From Methylomonas sp. 11b (GTDB lineage: Bacteria; Pseudomonadota; Gammaproteobacteria; Methylococcales; Methylomonadaceae), in the NCBI RefSeq assembly GCF_000515215.1, contig NZ_KI911557.1:62001-126000 (forward strand): a stretch of 64,000 bases of DNA, in the 5' to 3' direction. This document shows positions 12,477-29,625 of this stretch, in pieces. Each line of letters begins with the position of its first letter. The first letter of the stretch is position 1. Below the pieces are notes generated by a model that was given only the letters and a program-made list of their open reading frames with translations, did not search any database and had not been told where the DNA came from. Position numbers and translations under genes: made by a program.

Positions 12477-12546
12477 GGGCTTTCTCCGGTAATCTTAAAA
12501 TGTGGAGAAAGCCGTCCCCTTCCGGGGTGGACTTTCTCCGGAAGGG
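12477..12546 (-). promoter_or_regulatory. Structured leader of radC
   Basis: On the minus strand: CCC-tt-CCGG-loop-CCGG-aa-GGG. The loop contains GGAGAAAG, and the strand CTTTCTCC at 12504-12511 downstream is complementary to it. The same CTTTCTCC is also complementary to the radC Shine-Dalgarno GGAGAAAG (12480-12487). ATTTTAAG follows the second strand. Confidence 0.65.
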
Positions 12547-12677
12547 TTGTCAAAAATGTGCAAAGCGTTGTCAGCGATGCCCGCAAACGTTGGCCGTCCG
12601 CTGAAGCATCCTTCGCTAATAAAACTTAAGTTGACGCCTCTCTTGCGTCAGGTGTTTGGGAATTGGTTTCCTCGAAT

Positions 12678-12745
12678 AAAAAAGCCCCGAGGACACGACA
12701 CAGTCCAACCCCGACGGGGAGAACGGATCATCTCCCCGAGGCGGG
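12678..12745 (-). terminator. Orphan copy of the leader hairpin ending in a T-run
   Basis: Minus strand: outer CCC (12743-12745) with GGG (12710-12712), inner GGGGAGA with TCTCCCC, then a downstream CGGGGC that can pair with CCCCG and is followed by six Ts (12678-12683). No open frame follows it; the next gene on this strand is radC about 200 bp on. It therefore looks like a terminator or attenuator after the methyltransferase gene. Confidence 0.6.
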
Positions 12746-12794
12746 TAATACTGGCTAGGCCAGTGGTTAAATTAAAGACCTGTATAACACCGTA

Positions 12795-14558
12795 TTACGA
12801 TGCCAAAGCCAGGACTGTATCCGATGGTAGAGCCTCGGCCCATTCCAGCAAGCTGGATGGTTCGTTTTCCAATACCGCATCGGGATCAATGCCTCGGCTG
12901 GCAAGTACCGTGCTCATCGCCTGGGTTAACAGACGATGGCCTTTTTCCCGTTCCGACTCGCCGCCGTGCTTGATCGCCCAAAAGGGATCGAAATGGACAT
13001 GCCGGCTACTGCGTGGACACTGCTTGTTCACTTCGGTGTGAAACGCCCGATCTAAGGTCTCTGCCTGTTCGAACTGCTGCCAGAAACCTTGTCCGGCTTG
13101 GCTTTCCACCGGTGGCAACCAGCGGCGCTGGCGGCCAACCCAACGATTCATCCGGTCGATCAAGGTTTTGCTCTTCGGAAAAAAGTGAATGGTGCCAACG
13201 CCCGGATAATAGCGAACGTCAAAATAACTGCCGCCGATCCGCTTGCCGACCCGAAGCGCGTGAAAATGCTGCCGAAACACCGACACCAAACTCACGTCCG
13301 CTTCGGTCTTACCATCGAGCAAGGCAAACACCTTGTCGAAATCCGCTAGCAGACGTTCTGACTCCCAGTTCAGGCTATTGTGGTACGACTCAACTTTGTG
13401 CCCTGGTAGAACGAATCGAGTGGTTTTGATCCGCATGCCCAAGGTGCGATGTTTGTCATTGCTTTTCCAGCCCATGTAAAACACCGCATTTTCACTGTAA
13501 TAGCGGGTGATCAGATCAAACACATCGCACACCATGCTCAATTGAATTTCACCTTGCTGATCGATGATGCCTTGCAAAAAGCCGTAGATATTCGGCACGG
13601 TAAATTCCAAGGACTTCACCGCTTCAAAATCCGACTCCAAGCGTTTCTGCGCCGTCGATGACAAGCGTGAAGTCACTTGCGTAGAGCGTAAAATGCTGGC
13701 CCATGCCCGATTCTTCAGATCGTGATAGCGTTTGAACAGCGTTCGCTTCACCGCATCCGAAGACGACTCGTCTTCACTGCTGATGCCGCCACCGTTCAAT
13801 TCACCAAGGGTTTTACCCAGCATGGTCCGATAACGGCTGGCACGCGCTTCACTGACCACGGCCCGTCGCGCGGCTTCGACCGCGGCATTGAACATCAACA
13901 CCGCGTTATCGATGAAGGCATTCGGCAAGGCCAACTCATGGGGCAATTGAAACTCGCCCGCCACATCGTCGGCCTCCCGGCGATCCTGGCGCAAATCGTC
14001 CAGAATACTGCCGAGGATGTCCTGTTCGAACGTCGAAGTTTTTTTCAACCAGACCAGGGCCACATCGACCGGCGTTTTGCGTTCGGCTTCCTCGCCGGCG
14101 AACATTTCTTGCAGAAACTCGACCTCGCCATGCTGCTCAATTAAACGCAATAACAGCTGGCGTTCTTTCGAAAACGGATTGCGCAAGGTTTCGGCATTGA
14201 GAATGGCGACGATTTCACCGTCAAACAATATCTCCCAAGCCTTCAACACATGTTTGGCGCCTTCGGCAAACGGGGGATTCATGATGATGTGAGAATAGAC
14301 ACTGCCGCTTTGAAACTGCAGAAAATCCATCCCCACCACCGCATAACCTTCATCGCGCAGAACCGCGTGCTTGCGTATATCGATTTCAATGCAATCGATC
14401 GGCAAACGTTTACCGTACTGGTAGGGTCCTGGACGTAGCAAATGTCCTTCGCCTGCTGAAGGCTCCAATACCCGAGCGAATTGCTGGTTCTTGAACATCG
14501 CCCAAGCTTTACGACTCAGTGCTTCTGGTGTGGGGTAATATTGATAAGGGTCTGTCAT
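12795..14558 (-). CDS. DNA methyltransferase-like protein with DUF4942
   Basis: A 587-residue protein with an N-terminal class I SAM-dependent methyltransferase domain: VLEPSAGEGHLL (motif I) near residue 32, IEIDIRKHA (acidic loop) and the catalytic HIIMNPPFAEGAKH motif near residue 92. NPPF indicates an N6-adenine or N4-cytosine amino-methyltransferase. The C-terminal half (about 330-460) resembles DUF4942 (DVFDLITRYYSENAVFYMGWK). No restriction partner is adjacent, so it is probably a solitary or anti-restriction methylase of the element. It has its own structured leader, and a terminator separates it from the upstream gene. Confidence 0.75.
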   Translation of the reverse strand: MTDPYQYYPTPEALSRKAWAMFKNQQFARVLEPSAGEGHLLRPGPYQYGKRLPIDCIEIDIRKHAVLRDEGYAVVGMDFLQFQSGSVYSHIIMNPPFAEGAKHVLKAWEILFDGEIVAILNAETLRNPFSKERQLLLRLIEQHGEVEFLQEMFAGEEAERKTPVDVALVWLKKTSTFEQDILGSILDDLRQDRREADDVAGEFQLPHELALPNAFIDNAVLMFNAAVEAARRAVVSEARASRYRTMLGKTLGELNGGGISSEDESSSDAVKRTLFKRYHDLKNRAWASILRSTQVTSRLSSTAQKRLESDFEAVKSLEFTVPNIYGFLQGIIDQQGEIQLSMVCDVFDLITRYYSENAVFYMGWKSNDKHRTLGMRIKTTRFVLPGHKVESYHNSLNWESERLLADFDKVFALLDGKTEADVSLVSVFRQHFHALRVGKRIGGSYFDVRYYPGVGTIHFFPKSKTLIDRMNRWVGRQRRWLPPVESQAGQGFWQQFEQAETLDRAFHTEVNKQCPRSSRHVHFDPFWAIKHGGESEREKGHRLLTQAMSTVLASRGIDPDAVLENEPSSLLEWAEALPSDTVLALAS

Positions 14559-14624
14559 GGTCTTCTCCGATAAGACCCCTGGCGACCGATGTATCCCTGG
14601 CGGGATAGAATCATCCCGCAGGGG
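14559..14624 (-). promoter_or_regulatory. Structured leader of the methyltransferase gene
   Basis: Minus strand: CCCC (14621-14624), inner CGGGAT with ATCCCG (14613-14618 and 14601-14606), then GGG (14595-14597). The 5' CCCCTG can also pair with a second CAGGGG nearer the start codon. It begins only 8 bp after a Rho-independent terminator. Confidence 0.6.
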
Positions 14625-14631
14625 TAGTGTG

Positions 14632-14652
14632 AAAAAACTCGGCTTAACCGAG
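14632..14652 (-). terminator. Rho-independent terminator
   Basis: On the minus strand CTCGG-TTAAG-CCGAG is followed directly by six Ts. It ends the transcript of the 14674-15171 gene and lies immediately before the methyltransferase leader. Confidence 0.8.
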
Positions 14653-14673
14653 TGTCAAAATCAAAACGGTGCG

Positions 14674-15171
14674 TCAGATCAACGCGAACCGCTTGCCTTC
14701 AATGAAGTCCTGATACTGCCGGGCTTCGGTTTTTACTTTGAACCGGGCATGCACGCTCCCGTCGATCCAGATTTCCCACGGCAAGCGGTTAAGCTCACCT
14801 CTAACCAATTCCACCTCGCCAACCCGAAAATCATCGTGTTGGTAAAGCACTTGGCGAGGACTATCAATGCGAACGATGCACTGATCCAGTAATGCTGGAC
14901 CACCGATCTCGCCGGGTTCGATCAGCAATGGGACTTTGATGGATCCCATAGAGCGGCCGATCCAGCCGATGACATCGTGTTCATCGTGCCAGGACTGCCC
15001 GGTTTGGATATCGCCGTAATACAGCCGAATTTTGCGTCGGCTATGGCGAAGCTGTTCCAACAACTCAACCACCGGCTCCGGTGTATCGGCGTGGTAACAG
15101 GTGCCGGATGGCAAACGCTGATAGTGGATGCAATGACCCGTGCTAAAGGTGTGTTCAAAGATTTGATTCAT
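14674..15171 (-). CDS. Hypothetical element protein
   Basis: The ATG at 15171 (MNQIFEHTF) has AGGAC upstream and follows a structured leader, so I prefer it to a frame start at 15249. The 165-residue product is soluble, with alternating strands: HYQRLPSGTCYHADTPEPVVELLEQLRHSRRKIRLYYGD-type beta-helix-beta segment at residues 12-50, then GQSWHDEHDVIGWIGRS. Hypotheticals with this GDxxTGxxWxEE-like loop occur in conjugative elements, but I do not recognise a named family. A terminator follows 21 bp after the stop. Confidence 0.6.
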   Translation of the reverse strand: MNQIFEHTFSTGHCIHYQRLPSGTCYHADTPEPVVELLEQLRHSRRKIRLYYGDIQTGQSWHDEHDVIGWIGRSMGSIKVPLLIEPGEIGGPALLDQCIVRIDSPRQVLYQHDDFRVGEVELVRGELNRLPWEIWIDGSVHARFKVKTEARQYQDFIEGKRFALI

Positions 15172-15239
15172 GATGTTGTCCTCAATGAAATACGGAAACA
15201 TCACGATTCCCCAGCGGGAATAGGATATTCCCGTGTGGG
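15172..15239 (-). promoter_or_regulatory. Structured leader of the 14674-15171 gene
   Basis: Minus strand: CCC (15237-15239), inner CGGGAAT with ATTCCCG (15227-15233 and 15215-15221), then GGGG (15209-15212). Pairing of the loop with a downstream strand is weak in this copy. AGGAC and ATG follow. Confidence 0.55.
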
Positions 15240-15323
15240 TGGATAACACTGAGCGCCGATCCAGTGACTTGGCTAACTCAGGCTTTTACAAAGTGTGCGC
15301 ATAAAAATTTCATCGCGCAGTTT

Positions 15324-15608
15324 TCAGGATTGGATTTCCAGCGCAGGTTTTCCTAAGACTTCCGGCATGGCATTGGCTAAGGACGGTCCATCGTACGGCA
15401 ACTCGGTTTCCGCCGAGTCACCCGCGATCAATCCGCTTTCATAAGGCTCGATTTCCTTGTTGCAGTCCGGACAGCGATCGTTACAGCCGCAATCCCAAAC
15501 ATCCTCCCATTCGGTCTGGCAGTAAGGGCAGCGGTACTGATTCAGATAGCGAACCGCGCTGTTTTCGGCAGGGGTTGTGCCACTGCTGGATAGGTTGATT
15601 GTTTTCAT
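15324..15608 (-). CDS. Small zinc-ribbon protein
   Basis: The second ATG (15608, MKTINLSSS) sits 8 bases from GGAGG, whereas the ATG at 15614 is too close, so I start there. The 94-residue product has a zinc-binding centre: CPYC, about 15 residues, then CGC..CPDC (residues about 27-52), preceded by a polar segment and followed by an acidic tail. It could contact nucleic acid or protein. No family name is justified. It is divergent from the plus-strand gene at 15773. Confidence 0.7.
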   Translation of the reverse strand: MKTINLSSSGTTPAENSAVRYLNQYRCPYCQTEWEDVWDCGCNDRCPDCNKEIEPYESGLIAGDSAETELPYDGPSLANAMPEVLGKPALEIQS

Positions 15609-15666
15609 GGTCATGTCCTCCTAAAAATGCAGGAACGACCACCCGGCAGGATGGTGTTCCTGCAGG
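15609..15666 (-). promoter_or_regulatory. Structured leader of the zinc-ribbon gene
   Basis: Two exclusive folds are visible on the minus strand. One is the local hairpin CC-CAGGA..TCCTG-GG. The other pairs TGCAGGAACACCA with TGGTCGTTCCTGCA (one bulged base) over about 13 bp, followed by TTTTT, which is terminator-like. GGAGG and ATG come next. Confidence 0.7.
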
Positions 15667-15772
15667 TAAAAAACGCTGCTCAAAGCCGAAAATAGGCTCG
15701 CACAGCGGGGTTGAATTCACACAAAAATCGGTATATGGTGGCTAAAACTCATTAAAAAGCAGAGAAATAACC

Positions 15773-16150
15773 ATGTTTGACGATATTTTGCGCATTTTTG
15801 ATTTCCTCAGTCCTAAGCGGACGGAGGAGCCGTATCCAAGGCGAAAACCGATGGCGATTCCGGTCGATGAACCATTGAAAGTCGTTCGACATTGCCAACA
15901 AATTTTCCAAAAATTGGATGTTTTAGAAGCCGACGTGCTCAAGCGGGTTGATAATCCAGAGCAAGCTTGGCCGTTTCTAAACAAGATTCGACAAATTCGC
16001 CGGGAAACCCAGAACGATTTGTTATCGCTATTGCCCGAAGGCAGCTGGGTATTAGCCGATGAATCGAATCAACACGCGATCCCAGTTCGCCATATCAATA
16101 CGGCAACCGGAACCACGTTGCGGGTATTCAATGGCGGGCTTGCTGATTAA
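15773..16150 (+). CDS. Hypothetical protein
   Basis: One of the few plus-strand genes in this stretch: 125 residues, starting at an ATG 8 bases after AGAGA. The N-terminus is hydrophobic and short (FDDILRIFDFLS). A helical domain follows, residues about 35-85 (VRHCQQIFQKLDVLEADVLKRV and KIRQIRRETQNDLLSLLPEG), then a strand-rich C-terminus. It lacks the structured leader of the minus-strand genes and is divergent from the zinc-ribbon gene. Its 3' end overlaps the convergent gene at 16128 by 23 bp. I do not recognise a family. Confidence 0.6.
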   Translation: MFDDILRIFDFLSPKRTEEPYPRRKPMAIPVDEPLKVVRHCQQIFQKLDVLEADVLKRVDNPEQAWPFLNKIRQIRRETQNDLLSLLPEGSWVLADESNQHAIPVRHINTATGTTLRVFNGGLAD

Positions 16151-16664
16151 TCGTTAACGCGTTGGCGTTACCTTTCAGCGCTTCCCGCAATTGAAATACT
16201 TGTTGAGCAGTTTTAGCGGACTTATCGTCCACAATGGCTGGCCCGATCGCTTTTTTTGTACGCCGACGCGGTTTAGGCTTGATTTCGACCGCAACAGTCA
16301 TCGGTTTGATTTTCAATAGCTCCCGCTCTAGTTTGGCGATTTCAATATCCGCCTCGTAGAGTTTGATTGTTTTCTGTTTGGCTCGATATTGAATTTCCAA
16401 TCGCTCCAACTCGCGATTTGTTTCACGATTACGACTCTGAATTTCCTGACGCACCGAATCCGATATCGCCAGCCAATCCATGTCATCGCGACTACGTGGC
16501 ATGATGACCGGTAGCCGATGTCGTGCTTGGCGCTTGCTTTGATAACTGCGCAACATTTGAGCCGCATTTTTCAACGCACCAAGCAGTTGCAACGCCGTTG
16601 CCCAAATCACCCGCAAGGCGAGGATGAACATCGCCAAAATAATGATCCCGATAATAAAGTTCAT
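16128..16664 (-). CDS. Membrane-anchored coiled-coil hypothetical protein
   Basis: A 178-residue protein with one N-terminal membrane helix (IIGIIILAMFILALRVIWA, residues 4-22), then a basic region, a coiled coil around residues 70-120 (QSRNRETNRELERLEIQYRA.. YEADIEIAKLERELLKI) and a Lys/Arg-rich segment near 130-140. It could tether a complex to the inner membrane. The start has GGAG upstream and a structured leader. A structured-RNA-like module lies 115 bp further upstream on this strand. No family is recognised. Confidence 0.65.
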   Translation of the reverse strand: MNFIIGIIILAMFILALRVIWATALQLLGALKNAAQMLRSYQSKRQARHRLPVIMPRSRDDMDWLAISDSVRQEIQSRNRETNRELERLEIQYRAKQKTIKLYEADIEIAKLERELLKIKPMTVAVEIKPKPRRRTKKAIGPAIVDDKSAKTAQQVFQLREALKGNANALTINQQARH

Positions 16665-16741
16665 TGAAGTTCTCCTTTAAAAATTTAAGAAAACACTTCG
16701 AATGAACAGCACCCGGCCGGGCGATGGTCGCCCGAAGTGGG
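16665..16741 (-). promoter_or_regulatory. Structured leader of the 16128-16664 gene
   Basis: Minus strand: CCC (16739-16741), inner CGGGCG with CGCCCG, outer GGG. An alternative strand CACTTCG pairs with downstream CGAAGTG, which is followed by TTTTCTT. GGAG and ATG follow. Confidence 0.65.
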
Positions 16742-16778
16742 TTTTGATTTGCAGTGGGTAGATCCACTGCGATTTACA

Positions 16779-16883
16779 TCGGGCTTAACGCACCCGACAC
16801 GATCACGGTTTAACGTGCTCGCCGCCTAAAGACGGAACGCCGACCAAAGTCGGATTCAGCATTCATCAAAGAACGCATGAAAT
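16779..16883. ncRNA. Structured-RNA-like module, copy 1
   Basis: First of three related noncoding modules. In plus-strand orientation: TCGGG-cttaacgca-CCCGA; a CACG/CGTG hairpin; CCG..CGG; CCGAC-caaa-GTCGG (16840-16853); a final imperfect hairpin. Stem bases differ from copies 2 and 3 in a compensated way. It lies between the VWA gene stop and the leader of the 16128-16664 gene. The functional strand is not certain; minus is likelier because downstream genes are on it. Confidence 0.55.
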
Positions 16884-17005
16884 GTCTGTTTGTCAAATGG
16901 GCTCCTGGAAGTAAGTGCATTCGACAAACTGCGGATTCAATCAGCTACCCGTAGCCACAATCCAAGGCTTTAGCCAAGGATTGGACTACGAATAATTGAC
17001 TGGGC

Positions 17006-18763
17006 TTAGGCCGCCAACAACAACGATTTCGAGAGTTCAAACAATTGCGCTCTCAGCTCTGAAAGGTCGTTAATGGTGATGGCAATCGGGAATAGATGGC
17101 TGACATCCAATCCCAAGCCTACACCGACCGTTTCAATATCACTATCACGGCAACGCTGTAACAGTTCCAGCGTGCTCAGTGACTCGTTGGGTTGTCCATC
17201 GGTTATCACCATCAATACCTTGCGCGGTTCCCGGCAACGCAGTAGTGACGCCGCAGCAAACCAGATCGCTTCCGTCATCGGCGTACTGCCGGTGGCGGCT
17301 AGCGAAAAGGCGCCAGTTCGGGCATTCACGCGTTGGCCATGTTCCAGTAATCGGAACACCGAATCGTCGTGATGGCCTGGAAACGCTGTGACGCCAGGAT
17401 TGACTCCCGGAATGCCTTCGAATGCCAAGGCCAATGCCAAAGTGGCTTCCAACGCAATCGGCATTCGCGATCCCATCGGTTGGCCTTGGCTATCGGTCAC
17501 CTGATACCCCATGCTTTCGGATTTATCGAGTAACAGATGGATCGCCGTATTGGGTGCCGCTTTGGTCTCTTTACGCTGAAACAGCTTAGTTTCGCCCAGT
17601 GGTAAACGGTGTAAACGCTTGCCATCCAGCCGCCGTCCACGACACGCATGTTGCGACCGGTTTAAGGTTTGCGATTGCACCAAGCCTTGCAAAGCAGCAC
17701 GGATTTTTCCCGATTCGTCTTGCACCTTGCGCAGTAAAAACGCACCGGCCCGCTCGTCCATGGGCGGCTCTAGGCCACTGGGCATCAGCAATTCCGATAC
17801 ATTTTCCGCCGCCAACGACAAGGCCGATTTCAGCGATTCAAACACATCCAGCTCGATATCACTGTCACCAGCGGACAACAGAGTTTGCAAGACGCCCATC
17901 GGATCTGCAATTTCCGCGTTTTCTTCATCTTCGCCTTGTGGGTTGGATGTAGATCTGTCGGATGGCGTTGCCGGTTCATCGTCAGAATTTTTGGGAGTCG
18001 AATCATCGTTACCCGCCGATTCTGAAGACGGATTTTCGTCAATGTCGTTGGGCAATCGTTCATCGGGCTCCATGTCATCCGGCTCAGGCGTGTTTTCCTC
18101 ATCTGCCGATGGCTGTGCTTGGTTCTGCTGCCGTTGTTGCTCGAACTCATCTTCAATCATGGTCAGGATGCGATCGGTCAATTGCAGGCAATCACTCTCC
18201 GATTGCAAGCCCTCCGGCACTTCGGATAGCAAGCCTTTCAGGCGCGTTACCGCACCTTTCGGAAACGTTGCTTTCAATGCCGCTTCGGTTTGCTCGACCA
18301 ATGGCAATAACGCCGATTGACCCAACACCTTGGTCCGCAAATATTTCAACACGAAGCCGTACAGAATATTAGCCGGATGATCATCAATGCTGTTGGCCAC
18401 AAAGTCGCCTTTGGCAATCATCTTTTCAATCATGGTGCGAATGGTCAGCCGGGTACCTGGAAAGTCCTTGGCCAGTTCGTGCTCAATGCGAACATCTTCG
18501 ATGGCATTACATAAGCGCCGGCGCAATACCGAATGTCCAAAGCGCAACGTAAAATCCGAATAACGAATATGCGCGGCTTCGTGGGCTAAAAGGCCCCAGG
18601 CGACATCCTGATAATCTGGATCGTCGCCCTCATAGGCTGGCAGCCAAATGGTTTGACCATCGGTTTCGGCTTTATCACCGCCGACTCTGACTTTGACGCC
18701 AAAGCGATTGCCAATGGCTGCCGCAACGATGGGGAATGCGTTGTGTAATGTTCTATTTTTCAT
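17006..18763 (-). CDS. CobT-like VWA-domain protein
   Basis: The ATG at 18763 with GGAG upstream is the start (585 residues). The N-terminal part (about 1-200) has a zinc-protease-like LAHEAAHIRYSDF motif near residue 65 and an all-helical surround. The middle (about 205-300) is very acidic and low in complexity. The C-terminal VWA domain starts near 395 with an intact MIDAS: LLLDKSESM, the Thr of ATGSTPMTEA and VITDGQP. The layout is that of CobT-like partners of CobS/MoxR ATPases. Cobalamin synthesis is unlikely here; with the AAA, WGR and DUF3150 genes it forms a four-gene MoxR/VWA-type machine of the element. Confidence 0.85.
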   Translation of the reverse strand: MKNRTLHNAFPIVAAAIGNRFGVKVRVGGDKAETDGQTIWLPAYEGDDPDYQDVAWGLLAHEAAHIRYSDFTLRFGHSVLRRRLCNAIEDVRIEHELAKDFPGTRLTIRTMIEKMIAKGDFVANSIDDHPANILYGFVLKYLRTKVLGQSALLPLVEQTEAALKATFPKGAVTRLKGLLSEVPEGLQSESDCLQLTDRILTMIEDEFEQQRQQNQAQPSADEENTPEPDDMEPDERLPNDIDENPSSESAGNDDSTPKNSDDEPATPSDRSTSNPQGEDEENAEIADPMGVLQTLLSAGDSDIELDVFESLKSALSLAAENVSELLMPSGLEPPMDERAGAFLLRKVQDESGKIRAALQGLVQSQTLNRSQHACRGRRLDGKRLHRLPLGETKLFQRKETKAAPNTAIHLLLDKSESMGYQVTDSQGQPMGSRMPIALEATLALALAFEGIPGVNPGVTAFPGHHDDSVFRLLEHGQRVNARTGAFSLAATGSTPMTEAIWFAAASLLRCREPRKVLMVITDGQPNESLSTLELLQRCRDSDIETVGVGLGLDVSHLFPIAITINDLSELRAQLFELSKSLLLAA

Positions 18764-18825
18764 GGTGTGCTCCAAAAGTCAGGGCAAACCACGGCCCCAG
18801 AGGGACATGAATTTGCCCCATTGGG
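18764..18825 (-). promoter_or_regulatory. Structured leader of the VWA gene
   Basis: Minus strand: CCC (18823-18825), inner GGGG with CCC, outer GGG. GGGCAAA from the inner stem and loop is complementary to the downstream TTTGCCC, which is followed by GACTTTTGGAG and the start codon. Confidence 0.65.
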
Positions 18826-18847
18826 TGAAGTGTTAAATGGCGTCAGA

Positions 18848-18973: not shown

Positions 18974-20038
18974 CTAGCTTTTATCCAGCAAGACCTCAAG
19001 CGCCCAGTCATCCGATGCCGATTCCGGTTCGAGTTCATCGTCAAAGATGCCGTCAAACAGATCAGTAAAATCGGGGCTGTCTGCAGCGGTTTCAGCGATG
19101 ACGGGTGTCGGTTCTGTTGGCACGACGAGTACTGCTGGTGGCTCGGACTCCGCGTATTCGATGACTTCTTCAGTTTCATCAACAACAGGCAGTTGAGTCG
19201 CCAACAATCCTTCACCGTGCCGACGGGTTTTATCCGGATCGGACAACAGCATGGCTGTCGCCAGAATCTCCTGCAAAATGCTGCCTTCAATGGCGCCTTT
19301 GGTGGGGATTCTCGCCAACAGATCGTCAATGGTGCTGACGACCGGCGCGACCCGATGATCCAGAAAACCTAGCCCATCGAGCTTGTCCCGCATGCGGCGA
19401 ATCGGCCGTAACGCGCTGCGGGTGACTTGTTGTTTGCCCAGCAACGACTGCTCGATGAGATGGTTGGCTTCCACGGAAATTTCATAGAACATCTGCTCAC
19501 TGAGAGAACCGATTTTGCTTTCCAGTCGTGCGATGTCCGCCGGCGGCAAGCTATCGGGTAACCCGACACTGACCACCAGAAAATCAAATGACAAGCGCGT
19601 CGAGACAAACTCCACTGAATCCACAGCTTGCTCGATGATGCCGGCAAATTCCGGATGGCGAACCACCCAGTCCGTCACCGCCGCATCGTAACCGGCAATA
19701 AACTCGGTTTTAGCCGCAGCAAAATCCAGCCCGATACGCTCAAGTTCCGCGGTAATACTGGCGGCCGATTCAACCGGCACGGCAAAGCCACCCAGAAAGC
19801 GGGTACCGACGCGCAGACAAATGCGTTCGGCTTCCTTCTTCAGACGGTTGAACACCGTCAGCTTGTCCGGATCGAGCAAACGTTTAGACCCTAAACTGGC
19901 TAAGTCCTCCGGCGGCAATTTGCTACCATCGGCCAGCACCAGGTCTTCTTTTTTCAGTTTCTTGCGGGCGCCGTAAATATTGGCATCCACTTTTACCAAG
20001 ACCACGCGGTCTAAGATGATTTGCGTTTCATGAGACAT
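18974..20038 (-). CDS. DUF3150-family protein
   Basis: A 354-residue protein, AGGAGG before the ATG at 20038. The body resembles DUF3150: LVKVDANIYGARKKLKKEDLV near residue 15, then RICLRVGTRFLGGFAVPV and a long helical region to about 265. The C-terminal 90 residues are acidic and Pro/Glu/Thr-rich. Its role is unknown; DUF3150 genes accompany CobS/VWA genes in phages and ICEs. The frame is interrupted by TAG after LEVLLDKS, but continues with an acidic tail (see 18848-18973), so it may be prematurely truncated by about 41 residues, or read through. Confidence 0.75.
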   Translation of the reverse strand: MSHETQIILDRVVLVKVDANIYGARKKLKKEDLVLADGSKLPPEDLASLGSKRLLDPDKLTVFNRLKKEAERICLRVGTRFLGGFAVPVESAASITAELERIGLDFAAAKTEFIAGYDAAVTDWVVRHPEFAGIIEQAVDSVEFVSTRLSFDFLVVSVGLPDSLPPADIARLESKIGSLSEQMFYEISVEANHLIEQSLLGKQQVTRSALRPIRRMRDKLDGLGFLDHRVAPVVSTIDDLLARIPTKGAIEGSILQEILATAMLLSDPDKTRRHGEGLLATQLPVVDETEEVIEYAESEPPAVLVVPTEPTPVIAETAADSPDFTDLFDGIFDDELEPESASDDWALEVLLDKS

Positions 20039-20099
20039 GGGAACCTCCTAAAATGAGAGGCACACCCATCCCCGCTGGGGTCGATGTGCCCCTGTAGGG
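20039..20099 (-). promoter_or_regulatory. Structured leader of the DUF3150 gene
   Basis: Minus strand: CCC-taca-GGGG-loop-CCCC-agc-GGG, then TGTGCC, complementary to GGCACA in the inner strand and loop, then TCATTTTAGGAGG and the start codon. Confidence 0.7.
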
Positions 20100-20121
20100 T
20101 TAAATGAAAATAACAAACCGG

Positions 20122-20889
20122 TTAAAACCAGCAGTCGTCCTTGTCGGACATGGCCGCTGCCAGATTTAAGCGGGGTTTGAGCAAACCTAAGACTTCTGCG
20201 GTGTCCCGAATGCTGTCCAGATCAGTGCCGAAAAATGCCAGCACGTCCTGTTCAGCTTTCAGATCGACCGAGAGATCTCGGGCGGTTTCGGTGGCAATAT
20301 CAATGTCCACGCCTTTAAAGCCTTTTGCTTTCAATGCCAGTAAAAACAACCAAGGCAGAATGCCATGCGCTGATTTAATCTGGCCGCTCAGATCAAAGAT
20401 TTCGGCATTGAGGGTGGCATCAATCCACTGTTGCCAGCCATCCCAGTCTTTTTCAGGCTTAGAGTGCTGATCCGATACGGATTGAATAACTCCGATCAGT
20501 CGCCTGACCTCGATACCCAAGTCCACTCGAACCGCCTGCTTGGCATGGCAATCAATGGTCCAATACAGCGACTCAACTGGCGGCGTTAGCATGGGCTCTG
20601 GATTTGAATCAGGCTCTGGCACTTGTGATTGAGTTGCCGAAGTCTTACCCGGAAACACCACATTGCCGTCACCGTCAATGTCCACCACGGCCACAAACAC
20701 ATAGCCCTTGGCCTGTTTTTGCTGTTCGATATCGTGCTGGCGTATTCCCGTTCGCGTATTGATGCTCGGCAGACGAGAAGCTGTCTTGCCCCAACGCGTC
20801 GAGATCGAGCCGTCAGCATGGGTGGTAACCGCCCAGTCTTTGAAACTGCCGTCAGTATTACGATGACGATAGAGATTCCAGGCAGCCAT
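20122..20889 (-). CDS. WGR-domain protein
   Basis: A 255-residue protein. Residues about 1-75 form a WGR domain: NLYRHRNTDGSFKDWAV, then STRWGKTASRLPSIN, with the Trp-Gly-Lys variant of the signature. WGR domains bind DNA ends in PARPs and occur widely in bacterial accessory proteins. The rest is helical and acidic without a recognised domain. The C-terminus reads SDKDDCWF. It starts two bases after the CobS-like stop, so the two are probably co-translated. Small single-domain WGR proteins occur twice more in this window. Confidence 0.75.
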   Translation of the reverse strand: MAAWNLYRHRNTDGSFKDWAVTTHADGSISTRWGKTASRLPSINTRTGIRQHDIEQQKQAKGYVFVAVVDIDGDGNVVFPGKTSATQSQVPEPDSNPEPMLTPPVESLYWTIDCHAKQAVRVDLGIEVRRLIGVIQSVSDQHSKPEKDWDGWQQWIDATLNAEIFDLSGQIKSAHGILPWLFLLALKAKGFKGVDIDIATETARDLSVDLKAEQDVLAFFGTDLDSIRDTAEVLGLLKPRLNLAAAMSDKDDCWF

Positions 20890-20891
20890 GA

Positions 20892-21833
20892 CTAGATCTG
20901 CCAGTCATCGCCAAACACATCTTTGGCGATGCGATGAATCGCTTCGCGTTCGGCGGGTTCAGCTCGAAAGGTCAAGGCCCTGTCCAAGGAATACGCCAAG
21001 GCATTCGGCGCACTTTTGAAGGTGGCTACCAATGACGCCCAACGCACTAAACCGCGCGTGGATAAGGTCACCGACAACATGCCACTGCCATCCGCACCGC
21101 CGATAAAGACTTTACGAATCTGATTGGCGACTTTGATCATGCTTTCGCGTACCGTTTCCGGCATACTCGGCACTACATCGGCCAACAGTTTCATTTCGTC
21201 TTCGGGTTCGGGGTAACCAACTTCCATCAGCCTAAAACGATCTAGAAACGCGAGGTTCTGCCGCAACACCCCTTGGTACAAGCCCGACTGATCGCCAGAC
21301 CCAGCACTATTGCCGGTGGCCACCAAACGAAACTTCGGATGCGGGACAATCACGTCGCCGGTCTGTGGAATCGTCAACGGCTTGCCTTCAACAATTTCAT
21401 TCAAGCCAATCAGCTCGGCAGGATCGATGGCATCGATTTCGTTGATCAACAATACATGACCCAGGCGGACTGCCAGGGTCAACGGACCGTCGATCCACTT
21501 CATCGCGCCGCCGTCGACCAGCATGTACTGGCCTAGCAGGTCATTGAGTTCCAATCGACCGTGACCGGTGACCGAATGCACGCCCCAATGGAGACGCGCC
21601 GCAACTTGCTCCAACAACGAGGTTTTACCGGAACCGGTGGGGCCGGTCAGGTATAAGCCGTCGCCATTGTGTGCGCCTAAAAACGCCAACACATCGCGTA
21701 AGTGATCCTTGCGAAACACATAGGGTTTTTGCGCCGGTACATAGGTATTTTGTCCGAGGGCAAAGCCTTCCACTTTCATGGAAGCAGGGGCCGGAATGCC
21801 GAACGTGTCGGCAATGGAATAGTGTTGGTACAT
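20892..21833 (-). CDS. CobS/MoxR-like AAA+ ATPase
   Basis: Starting at ATG 21833, which has GAGG upstream, the 313-residue protein is a MoxR-type AAA+ ATPase: YLTGPTGSGKTSLLEQ (Walker A, near residue 62), VLLINEIDAIDPAELIGLNE (Walker B), LVATGNSAGSGDQSG (sensor region) and a DRFRLMEVGYPEPEDE arginine-finger segment. A short CobS-like N-terminus precedes it (FALGQNTYVPAQKPYVFR). Such ATPases work on or with VWA proteins; the CobT-like VWA gene is two genes downstream. It is the first gene of the AAA-WGR-DUF3150-VWA run and has its own leader. Confidence 0.88.
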   Translation of the reverse strand: MYQHYSIADTFGIPAPASMKVEGFALGQNTYVPAQKPYVFRKDHLRDVLAFLGAHNGDGLYLTGPTGSGKTSLLEQVAARLHWGVHSVTGHGRLELNDLLGQYMLVDGGAMKWIDGPLTLAVRLGHVLLINEIDAIDPAELIGLNEIVEGKPLTIPQTGDVIVPHPKFRLVATGNSAGSGDQSGLYQGVLRQNLAFLDRFRLMEVGYPEPEDEMKLLADVVPSMPETVRESMIKVANQIRKVFIGGADGSGMLSVTLSTRGLVRWASLVATFKSAPNALAYSLDRALTFRAEPAEREAIHRIAKDVFGDDWQI

Positions 21834-21906
21834 GGTGAGCTCCTCGAGGGCTAGCCTCAGAAAAACAAGGGGCGCACCGCCCCGAGGGGTAATGAGCCCC
21901 AACGGG
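21834..21906 (-). promoter_or_regulatory. Structured leader of the CobS-like gene
   Basis: Minus strand: CCC-gtt-GGGG-ctcatta-CCCC-tc-GGG. A competing hairpin GGGGCG-gtg-CGCCCC follows at once and ends in TTGTTTTT. CTCA in the loop also matches TGAG downstream. GAGGAG and the start codon follow. Confidence 0.7.
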
Positions 21907-21942
21907 TGTTAAAACCCTGGCAAAACAGGGTAGATAAAGAAA

Positions 21943-22155
21943 TTAACGTAGCTGCATGACGCAGTACATCGCCCATTCGGCGCGGGCCAACAGCTCCCGA
22001 TCCATCAAGCGCAGGATGCGCTGAATGTCGCTTCTCAAACCGGGGTCCGAGATTTGACGATGCATCTCCAGCAGCAACCGCTTTTTGGCCTGAATGTCGT
22101 CGCTATGCGCAACGTTCAACCAGCCGTGCAAGGTTTTCCAAAAGTCGTGATTCAT
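21943..22155 (-). CDS. Small helical hypothetical protein
   Basis: The ATG at 22155 (MNHDFWKTL) lies 5 bases after GGAGG and is preferred to one at 22170. The 70-residue product appears all-helical, with DIQAKKRLLLEMHRQI and LRSDIQRILRLMDREL. No family is recognised. It has a structured leader and, further upstream, the second RNA-like module. It lies between the exonuclease and CobS-like genes, where SXT-type elements also carry small uncharacterised genes. Confidence 0.6.
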   Translation of the reverse strand: MNHDFWKTLHGWLNVAHSDDIQAKKRLLLEMHRQISDPGLRSDIQRILRLMDRELLARAEWAMYCVMQLR

Positions 22156-22221
22156 AATGACCTCCTTCAATCATCAAAAGGGGTCATCGGGTCCCGTGAG
22201 GGTGATGAACCCCAACGGGAC
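22156..22221 (-). promoter_or_regulatory. Structured leader of the 21943-22155 gene
   Basis: Minus strand: GTCCC (22217-22221) pairs with GGGAC, enclosing GGG with CCC. The loop strand GGGGTTCATC is complementary, with one bulge, to downstream GATGACCCC, which is followed by TTTT, then GGAGG and the start codon. Confidence 0.7.
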
Positions 22222-22233
22222 AAACTAAACACA

Positions 22234-22331
22234 CCAGGCTTGACGCACCTGGCACACGAGGCAAACGCTCATGCCGCTTAATAACGGAACGCCGGTCGAA
22301 ACCGGATTCGGGATTCCACGAAGGGAATGCC
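22234..22331. ncRNA. Structured-RNA-like module, copy 2
   Basis: Plus-strand reading: CCAGG-cttgacgca-CCTGG (22234-22252), GGCA/TGCC hairpin, CCG..CGG, CCGGT-cgaa-ACCGG (22292-22305), ATTCC/GGAAT hairpin. Relative to copy 1, the first stem has T-A replaced by C-G and G-C by A-T, and the fourth stem has A-T replaced by G-C and C-G by T-A. Loops and linkers (CTTRACGCA, CGGAACG) are kept. Confidence 0.6.
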
Positions 22332-22497
22332 TGAACGATGCGGGTTTTGGGTTGGACTTTTTTAAAAGCCCAGCCTAAAACCGACATGCCTAAACTGAAG
22401 GATTTCATGAGGTGTCCGGCGTCAACTATCTTGGCCGGTCGTCAATCAATGAACATCCCGTAACCACCAGGGTTACAGGATGTCTTGAAACGACCCC

Positions 22498-23499
22498 TCA
22501 AAACCAAAAGTCCACACCCGCTAGGTCTTTCAAGGCTTGGGCATCGAACGGTACTTCAGCATGTTTACCGTCGTCATCCCGACAGGTCACACGGACTCTC
22601 GTGGCAGACGGTTTTCGATAGAGTTCCAGCGCCGAAGCCTGAACATCCGGTTGCAAGGTTTGAAGTGCAGCCTTGTAATCGATGGCACCCTGGCTTTGAA
22701 AACGGCTGATCCGCAACCCGGAATGCTCTGCGGCCACGTAATCACCCATCAGCAACACCAACGTGTTTTCAATGGCCGCCTGATTAGCCTCCAAGGTGGT
22801 TAGCTCCGCTTTCAAATCCGCAATTTTCACGGCACGGTTGCGATAACTCGCCGCCAGTTGTTGCCATTGCTGCTCCGCATCACCTTTGGGCAAATACAAA
22901 TCAAGTTCGGGATCCTTAGGTGGCTCCTTTTTGGACTTGACCGCCGACCAGAAATCCATCGCGACAGCGACTAACTCGGTGAGAAAGATCTCATCGCGCT
23001 GAATTTCAAACTCGATGTCCTGGCCTTGGTGATAGAAAAACAAAAAGCCGCGCTGTGCTTCGGACACCAGCAGTTGCTGTTGCACCTGGCACCAATACAG
23101 TTGATAGGCCTCGGACGCTTCCCGATTCAACAGCACATCCAGAAACGTGGTCTGGTGCGGACATTTGATTTCCACGGGCTCATTCGCGTCGGACAAGCCG
23201 TCGAACGATGCCCGCATCAAGGGGTACTGTTCCGACTCGCCGCACAGCGGCAACAACATCAGCTCGTGTTTATCCTCGAAGCGTTGCAAAGCCTCGGGCT
23301 CCTGCTGGATCCCGGCGCGGATCAAGGGGTTGTTGTCCAGGCTGGCTTCCAGTACCAGGCCGATTTTTTCAGCCCAGAGCCGCCAAGGGGTTTTGTAAGG
23401 CGAGCGGTTCATGACGATGGCCGCTTCACTGGCACTGACGCCTTGTGAACGCCAGTGCCGCCATGCGGTGGACCGTTGCGAAACGTCGACGACGTTCAT
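22498..23499 (-). CDS. YqaJ-family (lambda-type) exonuclease
   Basis: A 333-residue exonuclease. The YqaJ domain (residues about 8-165) starts QRSTAWRHWRSQGVSASEAAIV and contains the metal site: Asp in MRASFDGLSD, then PVEIKCP (ExK), a PD-(D/E)XK core. It should resect double-stranded DNA to supply single strands for the Bet annealase at 24007, a Red-like recombination pair as in SXT. The C-terminus (from about 215) is a coiled coil followed by a strand-rich tail ending LAGVDFWF. It overlaps the preceding gene by 4 bp (ATGA). Confidence 0.88.
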   Translation of the reverse strand: MNVVDVSQRSTAWRHWRSQGVSASEAAIVMNRSPYKTPWRLWAEKIGLVLEASLDNNPLIRAGIQQEPEALQRFEDKHELMLLPLCGESEQYPLMRASFDGLSDANEPVEIKCPHQTTFLDVLLNREASEAYQLYWCQVQQQLLVSEAQRGFLFFYHQGQDIEFEIQRDEIFLTELVAVAMDFWSAVKSKKEPPKDPELDLYLPKGDAEQQWQQLAASYRNRAVKIADLKAELTTLEANQAAIENTLVLLMGDYVAAEHSGLRISRFQSQGAIDYKAALQTLQPDVQASALELYRKPSATRVRVTCRDDDGKHAEVPFDAQALKDLAGVDFWF

Positions 23500-23831
23500 T
23501 GCCAGGCATCCGGCAACTGAATGTGGCAGCCTAACCGCAACGAAGGCACGCCGCGTTGGGTTAAATGCTGTTCACAGCGCTTGGCCCAATGGAAATCGGC
23601 AAATAGCAACAACACGGCATCCGCAGTTGGCAATACCAAGCCGCCAAAACTTTCCACCAAATGGTGTAATTCCGCTTTGGAGGGTTTGTCGACCTCTGCC
23701 ACGGCTACACCCGGTTTAAAACTGCGTTCTAAAAAGCCGCGCCCATGTCGGCGAATCACCGTGGGTGAGTCGTAACGCCGCCAGTCGGTATGACAGGGCA
23801 GCCGATTTAACGATTGATCGATTGCATTCAT
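23496..23831 (-). CDS. Hypothetical protein coupled to the exonuclease
   Basis: A 111-residue protein between Bet and the exonuclease, overlapping the latter by ATGA. The middle shows a beta-helix-beta segment: DAVLLLFADFHWAKRCEQHLTQ, then VPSLRLGCHIQLPDAW. The N-terminus is Arg-rich (SPTVIRRHGRGFLERSF). I do not recognise a family. Coupling to the exonuclease and its place in the recombination operon suggest an accessory role, which is inference only. It has a structured leader. Confidence 0.6.
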   Translation of the reverse strand: MNAIDQSLNRLPCHTDWRRYDSPTVIRRHGRGFLERSFKPGVAVAEVDKPSKAELHHLVESFGGLVLPTADAVLLLFADFHWAKRCEQHLTQRGVPSLRLGCHIQLPDAWQ

Positions 23832-23901
23832 GATCTCTCCTTAACTAAAACTCAGAGCATCATGAATCCCCACACGGGCGAGTCATGACGCCCTGAAGGG
23901 G
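23832..23901 (-). promoter_or_regulatory. Structured leader of the 23496-23831 gene
   Basis: The clearest copy on the minus strand: CCCC-ttca-GGGC-gtcatgactc-GCCC-gtgt-GGGG. The inner strand and loop GCGTCATGA are complementary to downstream TCATGATGC (one G-U pair). TCTGAGTTTTAG, GGAG and the start codon follow. Confidence 0.75.
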
Positions 23902-24006
23902 TGGTAGTTGAATGTGACGGATGCTGAAATCCAGCACACATCAGTATGAAAATGGCCTAGCCGATTGCGTGATTAAGCAACAGGACAGCCCTATACAGTG
24001 AAATGA

Positions 24007-25062
24007 CTAACGGTTGGCGCCCAAAGCCTGACGCGCCTGCGTCATAGCCATGTCCTTCGCTGTCAATGGCGGCATGGCCGTCGCTTCAGATTGTTCCAAT
24101 ACCGGTGTGGTCCTGGGTTCGACCTCAGAGACCTTGTCCAACTCGGCCAAGGCAAACGTCAGATCGATACCTCTGAACTTCTGATGGGCATAGTCGTAGG
24201 CGGCTTTCCAGGCTCCTGCCGCCGCAGTACGTCTAACCAGTTCAGCGACCGCTTTTTGCACCTTGGGATGGATTTGCGACAGATCGATGACACGATTTGC
24301 ATCAACGCCAGCATCGCCCCCAAAATCGTGATCGTCACTGCCAACCTCTGCTGCATTCAAAACTGTGGCACTACCATCGATCACGCTACCGTCGGCAATA
24401 TCGTCAAGGGTTTTGCCATCCATTTCCTCGGCGGCATAACCGCATTCCTCCGGAAAGGCTGCCCTGAGCGACGCCGCTTTACCGCATTTGGATAATTGCC
24501 CCTTAGGGCGTTTGATCCACATGGCGGTTGGCACTTGCGAGTGTTTACCACCGGCCGAGCTATAAGCCTCCAGCCAGTAGACTTCCTCGGTAAAGGCGCA
24601 ACGTTTGCCGGCGACGATCCGGTACACAGTAACCGCCACCCATTCGGGAAAGGTCACGGTGACACTGGATTCCTGCCATTGCTCGTTGTCGTCCTTGTAG
24701 CGACCGGTAAAGGTTTTGGTGATATCAGGACCCCAGACGGGTCTGTCCATGCCGGCCCAAACACCGGTTCGGGATGCGGTAGTCTGAATTTCCATGATGG
24801 ACGGCCAGACGGTTTCGACATTGCGGCCTAAAGCGGCACTCCACATCGGTACGATATGCACCGGTTTTTTGAAGATGTCGAGCTTGCGGGCCTTGCAATA
24901 ATCCAGCGCCATCAGGATGGCTTCCGGGGTTTTCGCCGTGGGGAATGTCACTTCCGTCAATACCTTCCATGACTGCTCCGAAATACCATAGCCTTGCTGG
25001 GCTGCCATCGGCATGGGTAAGTCGCGCGACTTAGGTTGATAGTTTCGATTTTGATTGCTCAT
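24007..25062 (-). CDS. bet: Bet/RecT-type single-strand annealing protein
   Basis: The ATG at 25062 (MSNQNRNYQPK), with GGAG upstream, is the start; 351 residues. Residues about 30-210 match the phage Bet/RecT family: AILMALDYCKARKLDIFKKPVHIVPM, then TVWPSIMEIQTTASRTG and a lysine-rich KRPKGQLSKCGKAASLRAAFPEE. The acidic C-terminus is divergent. It anneals single-stranded DNA and works with the exonuclease encoded downstream. Element-borne Bet/Exo pairs drive recombination between related ICEs. Confidence 0.93.
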   Translation of the reverse strand: MSNQNRNYQPKSRDLPMPMAAQQGYGISEQSWKVLTEVTFPTAKTPEAILMALDYCKARKLDIFKKPVHIVPMWSAALGRNVETVWPSIMEIQTTASRTGVWAGMDRPVWGPDITKTFTGRYKDDNEQWQESSVTVTFPEWVAVTVYRIVAGKRCAFTEEVYWLEAYSSAGGKHSQVPTAMWIKRPKGQLSKCGKAASLRAAFPEECGYAAEEMDGKTLDDIADGSVIDGSATVLNAAEVGSDDHDFGGDAGVDANRVIDLSQIHPKVQKAVAELVRRTAAAGAWKAAYDYAHQKFRGIDLTFALAELDKVSEVEPRTTPVLEQSEATAMPPLTAKDMAMTQARQALGANR

Positions 25063-25125
25063 GGTGGGTCTCCTTATCAAAATGAGAACGCCATGGCCCC
25101 AACGGGGATAGTCGTCCCCTTTGGG
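25063..25125 (-). promoter_or_regulatory. Structured leader of bet
   Basis: Minus strand: CCC-aaa-GGGG-acgactat-CCCC-gtt-GGG. The strand GGGGACG pairs with downstream CGTTCTC using two G-U pairs; ATTTTG, GGAG and the start codon follow. Confidence 0.7.
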
Positions 25126-25190
25126 TTGAAAAGCCGTCACCGCAAAAACGGGTCGGCAGTACGTTAAAATTTACCCGCGCTTGCGGCAGC

Positions 25191-25643
25191 TCATGAATAG
25201 CTAGGTTTAGTTGAGCGGCATATCGGCATATCGGCATACTCGTCATCCCAATCAGCGTCTTCTGATGCCGGGTTCGATGATGAACCGCTTGTAGAGGCGG
25301 GCACAGTTGGGCGATCGAGTAGTTGCAACTCATGCACAACCACTTCCGTGCGATAACGCTTTTCGCCGTTCTTATCCCATTGCTGGGTGCGAAGAGCGCC
25401 TTCCACATAGATCTTGCTGCCTTTCTTCAAAAGATCGCCGGCGGTATCGGCCAGTTTTTTAAAAAACACGACCCGATGCCATTCAGTTCGTTCCTGTTTG
25501 GCGTTTTTTGCATCTTTCCAAACCTCACTGGTTGCCAAACGCACTGCCACGACTTTGCCGCCGTTATTCGGTAAATAGCGAATATCCGGATCGGCGCCGA
25601 GACGGCCCAGCAAGATGACTTTGTTTACACCACGATTGGCCAT
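25191..25643 (-). CDS. ssb: Single-stranded DNA-binding protein
   Basis: A 150-residue SSB with a standard OB fold in residues 1-110: [45 protein letters not shown], then [19 protein letters not shown]. The C-terminus has the acidic run [12 protein letters not shown], but the normal tip is not terminal. The sequence TATGCCGA is tandemly repeated here, and the frame runs on to [10 protein letters not shown]. Removing one 8-base unit would give YADMPLN then a stop. SSB tip contacts with host repair proteins may thus be altered. It is the first gene of the recombination block. Confidence 0.93.
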
Positions 25644-25721
25644 GATGATGTCCTCCTATCGGCCGCGCCCGACAAGTGAAAATAAAACCCACCTGCGCGG
25701 CGATGGGTCACATCCGGCAGG
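25644..25721 (-). promoter_or_regulatory. Structured leader of ssb
   Basis: A more diverged copy on the minus strand: CCTGC (25717-25721) with GCAGG (25692-25696), enclosing GATG with CATC. ACCCA in the loop matches downstream TGGGT, followed by TTTATTTT. GGAGG and the start codon follow. Confidence 0.55.
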
Positions 25722-29623: not shown

Positions 29624-29625
29624 CG

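Follow-up and report, generated by a model that had tools for sequence, protein, structure and literature searches.

Structured leaders in a DNA-processing gene block

The window analyzed here is a 64,000-nucleotide stretch of the genome of Methylomonas sp. 11b (contig NZ_KI911557.1). Its minus strand carries a block comprising radC, a DUF4942 methyltransferase (MTase) gene, gene 14674-15171, a small Cys-rich gene, gene 16128-16664, and genes for VWA, DUF3150, WGR, CobS-like AAA, gene 21943-22155, YqaJ, gene 23496-23831, RecT/Bet and SSB proteins. Gene identities were taken from Pfam, except that the WGR gene had no Pfam match and owes its label to a first-pass annotation of the sequence. That annotation had described twelve minus-strand leaders with a shared hairpin order, and all twelve are present, directly 5' of start codons.

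We define a leader by six strands (segments), numbered 1 to 6. Hairpin A arises when strands 1 and 4 pair around paired strands 2 and 3 (1:4 and 2:3). Strand 5 is complementary to strand 2 plus the loop (2:5) and also to strand 6 (5:6), which runs from the Shine-Dalgarno (SD) sequence up to and including the AUG; strand 2 therefore imitates strand 6. Hairpin A was called when 1:4 plus 2:3 scored -12 or below, and a joint criterion combined hairpin A with 2:5 at or below -9 and 5:6 at or below -7. The leaders occupy short intergenic gaps, strand 1 starting 0-29 nt past the end of the upstream CDS in 23 of the 37 leaders measured. They are predicted to fold strongly.

12003-25643, minus: gene block under the leaders
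12477-12546, minus: radC leader, with segments 1-6; the SD region GGAGAAAG recurs in segment 2 and is complementary to segment 5
14559-14623, minus: leader of the DUF4942 methyltransferase gene; clear hairpin A, joint criterion in 2/14 orthologous leaders
15172-15239, minus: leader of gene 14674-15171
15609-15669, minus: leader of the small Cys-rich (zinc-ribbon-like) gene 15324-15608; the start is the second ATG
16665-16742, minus: leader of gene 16128-16664; shows hairpin A plus an SD hairpin, but joint criterion in 0/16 orthologous leaders
18764-18825, minus: leader of the VWA/CobT-like gene
20039-20099, minus: leader of the DUF3150 gene; 11-bp 2:5 helix with compensatory changes among orthologues
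21834-21906, minus: leader of the CobS/CbbQ-like AAA gene; the WGR gene behind this gene has no leader
22156-22221, minus: leader of gene 21943-22155; predicted fold with segment 5 paired with the SD region
23832-23901, minus: leader of gene 23496-23831; the overlapping YqaJ nuclease gene has no leader
25063-25125, minus: leader of the bet/RecT gene
25644-25702, minus: leader of the ssb gene, the most diverged; joint criterion in 0/21 orthologous leaders

Pairing within the window and among orthologues

Hairpin A was found in all 12 window leaders, compared with 12 of 125 host leaders (from ORFs sampled on the same chromosome) and 34 of 240 dinucleotide shuffles. Eight of the 12 window leaders satisfied the joint criterion, against 0/125 host leaders and 3/240 shuffles; shuffles of other elements' leaders gave 7/294. 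The twelve-leader set thus stands, and the same palindromes are not equally common at host genes. On the opposite strand of the 12 leaders, hairpin A was still called in 9 because it is palindromic, and the joint criterion in none. Swapping partners between window leaders raised the 2:5 energy from -12.4 to -7.2 kcal/mol (0 of 5000 permutations as good as the true partners) and the 5:6 energy from -10.2 to -7.5 kcal/mol (4/5000).

Orthologous gene starts gave a graded picture. As the first-pass annotation had proposed, the WGR gene lacks a leader: among 29 distinct orthologous starts the joint criterion never held, and hairpin A was called in 2. YqaJ starts gave 1/26. The orthologous leaders of ssb, 16128 and the MTase gene mostly keep the hairpin and rarely or never satisfy the joint criterion (counts listed above); these three are the weak points of the set.

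Compensatory changes were sought in two orthologue sets. In 22 of 26 distinct DUF3150 leaders, the 11-bp 2:5 helix has 90% of cells paired and five pairs changed on both sides, with a covariation of 0.321 compared with 0.219 when shuffled (0/500) and at most 0.157 when slid; this helix, which covaries, includes the 5' strand of the stem. Hairpin A in these leaders showed no two-sided changes. In 21 of 24 distinct VWA leaders, the helix hiding CCAUG is 91% paired, with two pairs changed on both sides and a covariation of 0.183 against 0.131 shuffled (1/500), two of its five measures being unremarkable (22/500 and 199/500 shuffles).

Leaders across conjugative elements

The first-pass annotation had confined the family to the element in the window. 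The family is real, and that scope was too narrow: the leader design recurs in R997 (which we take to be of SXT/R391 type; the gene names setC, setD and setR are likewise presumed), in IncC, IncHI2A, Aeromonas, Pseudomonas, Azospirillum and Azonexus elements, and in other radC-bearing elements (25 of 40 matches inspected), so that it spans many conjugative elements. When R997 was scanned CDS by CDS, the joint criterion was confined to the block, holding at 7 of the 10 block starts with a gap of at least 40. A Pseudomonas aeruginosa plasmid (L062) had common hairpins and satisfied the joint criterion once. A Moellerella plasmid has much the same genes and no leaders, and the genes therefore do not need them.

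For the pairing statistics, gene starts at L034-L043 were hand-picked from feature tables before the leaders were read and represent a subset of CDS (11, 10, 13, 16, 10, 8, 9, 9, 14 and 16 starts, in order of locus). At L057, L058, L060 and L061, every plus-strand CDS with a gap of at least 40 was used for pairing statistics, fold predictions and energy conditions. L034 and L037, which duplicate or nearly duplicate L057 and L058, and L038 and L039, which mostly have no leaders, were kept in the partner-swap and joint-criterion runs and excluded from the T-run, strand-blocking, 11-element pairing, fold and energy counts. L059 and L062 were scanned for the joint criterion and left out of the 11-element statistics. 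The 11 elements contributed 152 gene starts, of which the 126 whose leaders have hairpin A were retained.

Across these 126 leaders, true partners outperformed swapped ones for both 2:5 (z -18.4) and 5:6 (z -15.1), and for strand 5 against the post-SD bases alone (z -10.8), each with 0 of 5000 shuffles as good. Strand 2 plus loop also directly resembles the SD-to-AUG stretch (z -6.4; 0/5000), as the loop does the post-SD bases (z -3.3; 9/5000). Together with the DUF3150 changes in 2:5, these results uphold the earlier view that the sequence varies while the pairing is kept.

We built a covariance model of hairpin A (R1) from 37 leaders, three of them from the window, and searched mobile elements with it. 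The model recovered 10 of the 12 window leaders at E ≤ 0.27, the exceptions being those of 16128 and ssb. It also gave two weak window matches (25098-25126, plus strand, E 0.25; 45840-45885, minus strand, E 1.5), which we presume to be noise. In twelve 20-kb stretches of host DNA no match reached E ≤ 2, and the 12 matches found at E ≤ 0.01 in the organism's own genome fall into three clusters (150 of 401 initial candidates scored). Records held 3 to 25 matches, one ahead of gene after gene. At five annotated loci, 47 of 51 plus-strand matches end on an annotated start codon (two minus-strand matches excluded), an agreement to be read with the fact that the model itself ends in ATG. The RNAalifold consensus over the 37 leaders was weak (-2.93, covariation term 0.06); since RNAalifold returned just a near-invariant core from such mixed leaders, the segment-swap tests were used instead.

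Comparison with known RNA families

No Rfam match at gathering score covers a leader in the window or 18 related loci, where the only matches were to DUF3085, radC, STAXI, EFASI, group II intron and tRNA models; permissive scans added just chance-level matches. DUF3085 RNA (RF02959) is, like the leaders, a cis-regulatory RNA ahead of genes in such elements. It abuts the leader, the last positions of its model covering the leader's first CCC and G-run, and differs in that its paired part sits upstream. For at least 9 of the 19 DUF3085 matches listed in the Azonexus record (one at E 0.46), a leader match follows with an overlap of 11-12 nt; of the other 11 records, ten had no DUF3085 match at E ≤ 1 and one had only a match at E 0.58. 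Neither DUF3085 nor STAXI RNA matched in the window.

The radC (RF01754) and STAXI (RF01728) RNAs occur in the same kinds of mobile elements (radC in L082, STAXI in L080), but their models are longer and different, and the leaders match neither. For radC RNA, there was no match in the organism's own genome at E ≤ 0.001 or in control genomes, none above cut-off in 12 records, and one in L082, outside the leaders. STAXI matches in L080 do not overlap leader matches, one lying 46 nt upstream of a leader match with E 0.006.

Translational riboswitches and erm-type translational attenuators are sequestrator/anti-sequestrator switches, and the leaders resemble them in that access to the SD would depend on which of two incompatible helices forms: strand 5 can pair with the SD or with an alternative upstream strand, as the 5:6 and 2:5 statistics and the eight window leaders satisfying both pairings indicate. 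Unlike riboswitches and erm attenuators, the leaders have no ligand domain or leader peptide that was noticed by non-systematic inspection; they also differ in recurring ahead of successive genes, at 3 to 25 model matches per record.

The start-associated sequences (SAS/ESAS) of cluster K mycobacteriophages, according to the pertinent sections of PMC3203893, number 11-19 in each genome and sit where translation of non-structural genes begins; inverted repeats lie upstream of about half of them. SAS is, on the same account, a fixed 13-bp sequence with repeats of conserved sequence, whereas in the leaders the sequence varies and complementarity is kept; by inspection, the bases around the SD differ between leaders, which do not share such a fixed sequence. 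A description of the leaders was not found in the passages of the literature searched (including PMC2864571, PMC7657543, PMC3118119, PMC10954446 and PMC3203893), a scope outside which the 2017 paper behind many Rfam motifs falls.

A proposed translational switch

We think it likely, judging from sequence and predicted folding, that each leader is a cis-acting sequestrator/anti-sequestrator translational switch. When 2:5 forms (with 3:4), the SD would be free; when hairpin A forms, 5:6 would hide the SD and start codon. When the leader is folded only as far as the SD, 77 of 94 switch leaders have 2:5 as their predicted minimum free energy fold; for the full leader, that fold is hairpin A with the SD paired in 81/94. 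Predicted energies favor 2:5 before strand 6 is made and A with 5:6 afterward, and an open-then-closed order is therefore proposed, in which a fresh transcript would pass through the open state and then close unless a ribosome or factor kept it open. Both energy conditions held in 66/94 switch leaders, or 80 of the 126 with hairpin A, compared with 161/630 with the strand-5 region shuffled; of the 12 host controls with hairpin A, four satisfied them as well. The six-strand anatomy and the pairing statistics are observed, whereas translational action, the succession of states and whatever triggers them are inferred.

Two candidate triggers were considered, and no trans-acting factor emerged. 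Blocking strand 1 in silico left 21/95 leaders open against 4/95 unblocked, so that upstream ribosomes alone would be a weak trigger, and we rejected them as the sole one. A divergent candidate regulator upstream of the block (window 26061-26729) encodes a protein with homologues at the corresponding position in IncC, Azospirillum and Pseudomonas elements. We discounted it, since an annotated AcaB gene likewise lies upstream of the block in the Moellerella plasmid, which lacks leaders, a comparison of position and not of kinship.

The first-pass annotation had left the choice between translational control and attenuation, and had seen by eye that strand 5 complements the loop, suggesting an H-type pseudoknot or an exclusive stem. 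Its interpretation was partly supported, with translational control the likelier level and the pseudoknot and transcription attenuation less likely as general mechanisms. In transcription attenuation, the 2:5 hairpin followed by a U-run would act as an intrinsic terminator, with hairpin A as its antiterminator. Some leaders do have a long T-run behind strand 5: five or more Ts lie between segment 4 and the SD in 28 of 95 switch leaders, including 8/10 in L043 and 4/5 in L060. The other 67 lack T5, as do all 24 in L036, L040 and L041, and attenuation is therefore not general; the terminator reading was rejected as a general feature. It also leaves unexplained the match of strand 5 to the bases between SD and AUG, and we regard it as unlikely. 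In a pseudoknot gated by a protein or ligand, the loop would pair with strand 5 while stem 2:3 stayed, and a trans factor of the element would bind. The loop alone does pair with its own strand 5 above chance (z -8.4, 0/5000 over the 126 leaders; weak in the window alone, 188/5000), but contributes just -2.5 kcal/mol, compared with -14.0 when strand 2 is included, and loops are 4-8 nt long in 83 of the 85 leaders listed (loops above 10 nt having been filtered out beforehand). Since strand 5 pairs through the stem strand, as in the covarying DUF3150 helix, and with the SD-to-AUG stretch, two mutually exclusive states are the natural reading, and the pseudoknot seems very improbable.

That the stems protect or define mRNA pieces of a polycistronic transcript, as RNA-processing or stability hairpins, would suit strongly folding leaders in short intergenic gaps, but such hairpins would not require an extra strand that matches strand 2 as well as the SD-to-AUG stretch; we give this explanation little credence. 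It is most improbable that the signal acts in DNA, as a protein-binding inverted repeat or a single-stranded hairpin used on conjugative entry. The block genes do handle DNA, and the relevant passages of PMC2864571 discuss the STAXI motif, near similar genes, as a possible ssDNA structure, preferring RNA. The leaders' joint criterion is nonetheless strand-specific, and their position is fixed relative to the SD and AUG.

Implications for conjugative elements

With one copy of the translational switch per translated unit, the whole DNA-processing block would come under the same gate. More speculatively, MOBH-type and related conjugative elements might share a general post-transcriptional code, in which RNA gates in front of almost all genes of the establishment and recombination block would respond jointly to a single signal, such as arrival in a new cell or an RNA-binding protein encoded by the element, and translation of 10-28 kb would be shut off or allowed as a whole. 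If the switch reading is right, large families of conjugative elements would run their DNA-handling block through an RNA layer for which Rfam has no model at the loci scanned. These families include SXT/R391-type ICEs and the IncC and IncHI2 plasmids, and several of them carry resistance genes. The regular short gaps between block genes would be explained, and transcript levels would be a poor guide to protein levels in the block. The testable question would then be what opens the gates, and whether it is entry into the recipient.

Leader architecture

Twelve genes at window positions 12477-25721, on the minus strand, each have a leader about 60-80 nt long just before the start codon. These leaders share one order: a C-run (strand 1), a G-rich strand with its loop (2), a C-rich strand (3) and a G-run (4), followed by a strand complementary to strand 2 (5), in many cases a run rich in U, and the segment from the Shine-Dalgarno sequence (SD) to AUG (6). 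We call pairings 1:4 and 2:3 hairpin A (score ≤ -12); the joint criterion adds two alternative helices that use strand 5, 2:5 (≤ -9) and 5:6 (≤ -7). Hairpin A was found in 12/12 window leaders, as the first-pass annotation had described, versus 12/125 host leaders and 34/240 shuffles. By that annotation, equal occurrence of such palindromes between unrelated host genes would have spoken against the family: hairpin A does occur there at the lower rate given, and the joint criterion was found in 8/12 window leaders, 0/125 host leaders and 3/240 shuffles. Fold z-scores of individual leaders ranged from -1.6 to -6.0.

By Pfam, the genes behind leaders include radC, a DUF4942 methyltransferase (MTase), VWA/CobT-like, DUF3150, CbbQ/CobS-like AAA, RecT/Bet and SSB genes; several further leader-bearing genes have no Pfam match. 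A YqaJ nuclease gene and the WGR gene, both within the block, have no leader. Since WGR starts 2 bp behind CobS in the window and YqaJ overlaps gene 23496, leaders seem to mark translated units. The lack of a WGR leader, annotated at first pass, extends to its orthologues, and hairpin A on its own is present in all or nearly all orthologous leaders of every gene except WGR and YqaJ, including 17/21 for ssb.

Joint criterion among distinct leaders of each gene (window and related loci L001-L033)
radC: 5/5
MTase: 2/14
14674: 17/19
Cys-rich gene: 12/14
16128: 0/16
VWA: 22/24
DUF3150: 22/26
WGR: 0/29 (hairpin A 2/29)
CobS: 28/31
21943: 15/15
YqaJ: 1/26 (hairpin A 7/26)
23496: 12/22
bet: 17/17
ssb: 0/21

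Conservation of pairing

Because leaders within one element differ in sequence, we exchanged strands between leaders and compared how well own and foreign strand 5 fit strands 2 and 6. In the window, foreign strands did as well as the leader's own in 0/5000 (strand 2) and 4/5000 (strand 6) permutations, in agreement with the earlier claim that sequence differs while pairing is kept. Of ten other loci, eight likewise favoured the leader's own strand 5 (2:5, no more than 12/5000; 5:6, no more than 2/5000 except in L036, 36/5000, and L041, 156/5000); outcomes were mixed in Geoalkalibacter (L038; 2:5 52/5000, 5:6 3698/5000) and Allochromatium (L039; 647/5000 and 89/5000). Pooling 126 leaders, from 152 gene starts in 11 elements, gave z-scores of -18.4 (2:5) and -15.1 (5:6), and the signal persisted with the loop alone (z -8.4) or the bases behind the SD alone (z -10.8). 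Restricted to the window, the loop-only signal is weak (188/5000) and that of the post-SD bases clear (0/5000).

Covariation, suggested at first pass as a check, was found in two helices. The DUF3150 2:5 helix has 11 pairs, with 90% of cells paired and five pairs changed on both sides (21 distinct leaders), and in the VWA helix hiding CCAUG 91% of cells are paired and two pairs have changed on both sides (21 leaders). Hairpin A of the DUF3150 leaders is nearly invariant and showed no covariation.

A proposed translational gate

Folding predicts that the SD is hidden by default: its predicted mean unpaired probability exceeded 0.5 in 4/95 switch leaders, and the median predicted cost of freeing SD to AUG was 8.0 kcal/mol. 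When the transcript ends before the SD, the best predicted fold is 2:5 in 77/94; with the SD included, it is hairpin A with the SD paired in 81/94. Both energy conditions held in 66/94 switch leaders, or 80/126 leaders with hairpin A, compared with 161/630 controls with a shuffled strand-5 region and 4/12 host leaders having hairpin A. From this predicted fold order and these energies we propose a gate that would be open first and then close, and that a ribosome or factor might keep open. In 23/37 leaders measured, 0-29 nt separate the end of the upstream CDS from strand 1, so a terminating upstream ribosome could contribute to opening, but in silico masking of strand 1 by itself opened only 21/95 leaders.

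Relation to known elements

Sequestrator/anti-sequestrator switches are a known mechanism class. No Rfam match covered the leaders of the window and 18 related loci. The DUF3085 RNA of an Azonexus plasmid lies directly upstream of a leader, its model tail overlapping only the leader's first bases, and radC and STAXI RNAs lie near leaders yet are separate. Searches of the open-licence literature found no description of this leader family or its repeated per-gene use. The nearest precedent found is SAS/ESAS of cluster K mycobacteriophages, a start-site element that recurs at numerous genes and differs in make-up from the leaders (PMC3203893).

Neighbouring features

16821-16841, 22273-22293 and 25827-25847, minus strand: GGCGTTCCGTNNTTANGCGGC with a small C-G hairpin after it
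18974-20038: DUF3150 gene
26061-26729, plus strand: divergent gene upstream of the block
27953-31718, plus strand: transposition genes beside the block, with Mu_C/rve, TniB and TniQ domains

The GGCGTTCCGTNNTTANGCGGC element lies upstream of the 16128, 21943 and ssb leaders only, apparently at the heads of transcription units; its chance expectation in the window is 0.01, and it occurs in 17/76 loci, own genome included. DUF3085, STAXI and radC RNAs lie upstream of family leaders in related loci (L041 9890-9950; L080 7179-7333; L082 5902-6044), as does an EFASI RNA in L080, with close spacing for DUF3085 and one STAXI. These known structured RNAs suggest a two-layer layout of head RNA and per-gene leader.

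The divergent gene's protein has homologues encoded at the equivalent position in elements of IncC (44% identity; itself 54% identical to that of R997), Azospirillum (33%, with a sub-threshold match to AcaB) and Pseudomonas (27%); it may be a transcriptional regulator acting on the block. Among the relatives found for the window DUF3150 protein, the nearest belong to Methylomonas, whose genomes carry several of them, which suggests that the host is a Methylomonas or closely related to that genus. The window protein ends early at 354 aa versus 390-401 aa in all seven orthologues checked (L001, L002, L003, L005, L007, L009 and L011). The longer orthologues finish with an acidic-aromatic tip, SDQDYWF, reminiscent of that of SSB, and the WGR protein has a similar end (DKDDCWF).

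Distribution

In R997, which we take to be of SXT/R391 type, a CDS-by-CDS scan found the joint criterion solely within the ssb-to-primase block (7/10 block starts with a gap of at least 40; hairpin A 9/10). An IncC plasmid (29-kb stretch read) had it at 13/19 starts from the block's first gene on (hairpin A 17/19) and at none of the tra genes within that stretch. Its locus, L058, also has a strong leader match (13325-13389) ending at a start codon without an annotated gene, which suggests a small gene missed in annotation. Joint-criterion counts were 5/13 in an IncHI2A plasmid (from locus position 8411 on), 11/15 in a Vibrio plasmid (from 6517 on) and one overall in a P. aeruginosa plasmid. 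A covariance-model search, a kind of check suggested at first pass, with a model built from 37 leaders, matched 12/13 records at 3-25 copies apiece; the exception, a Moellerella plasmid of closely similar gene content, had no matches and no start with the joint criterion.

The own genome has 12 matches at E ≤ 0.01 in three clusters (150/401 first-look candidates scored). At least 9/299 sampled genomes of the phylum, this one among them, match at E ≤ 1e-4, a lower bound given the strict filters and 17 candidates scored per genome; 19/25 matches examined, in six of the matching genomes, have the joint criterion. Three of these loci (L077, L080 and L082) have radC, and DUF3150 gave no match within the part of them that was covered, so the leader family probably extends beyond the DUF3150 block.
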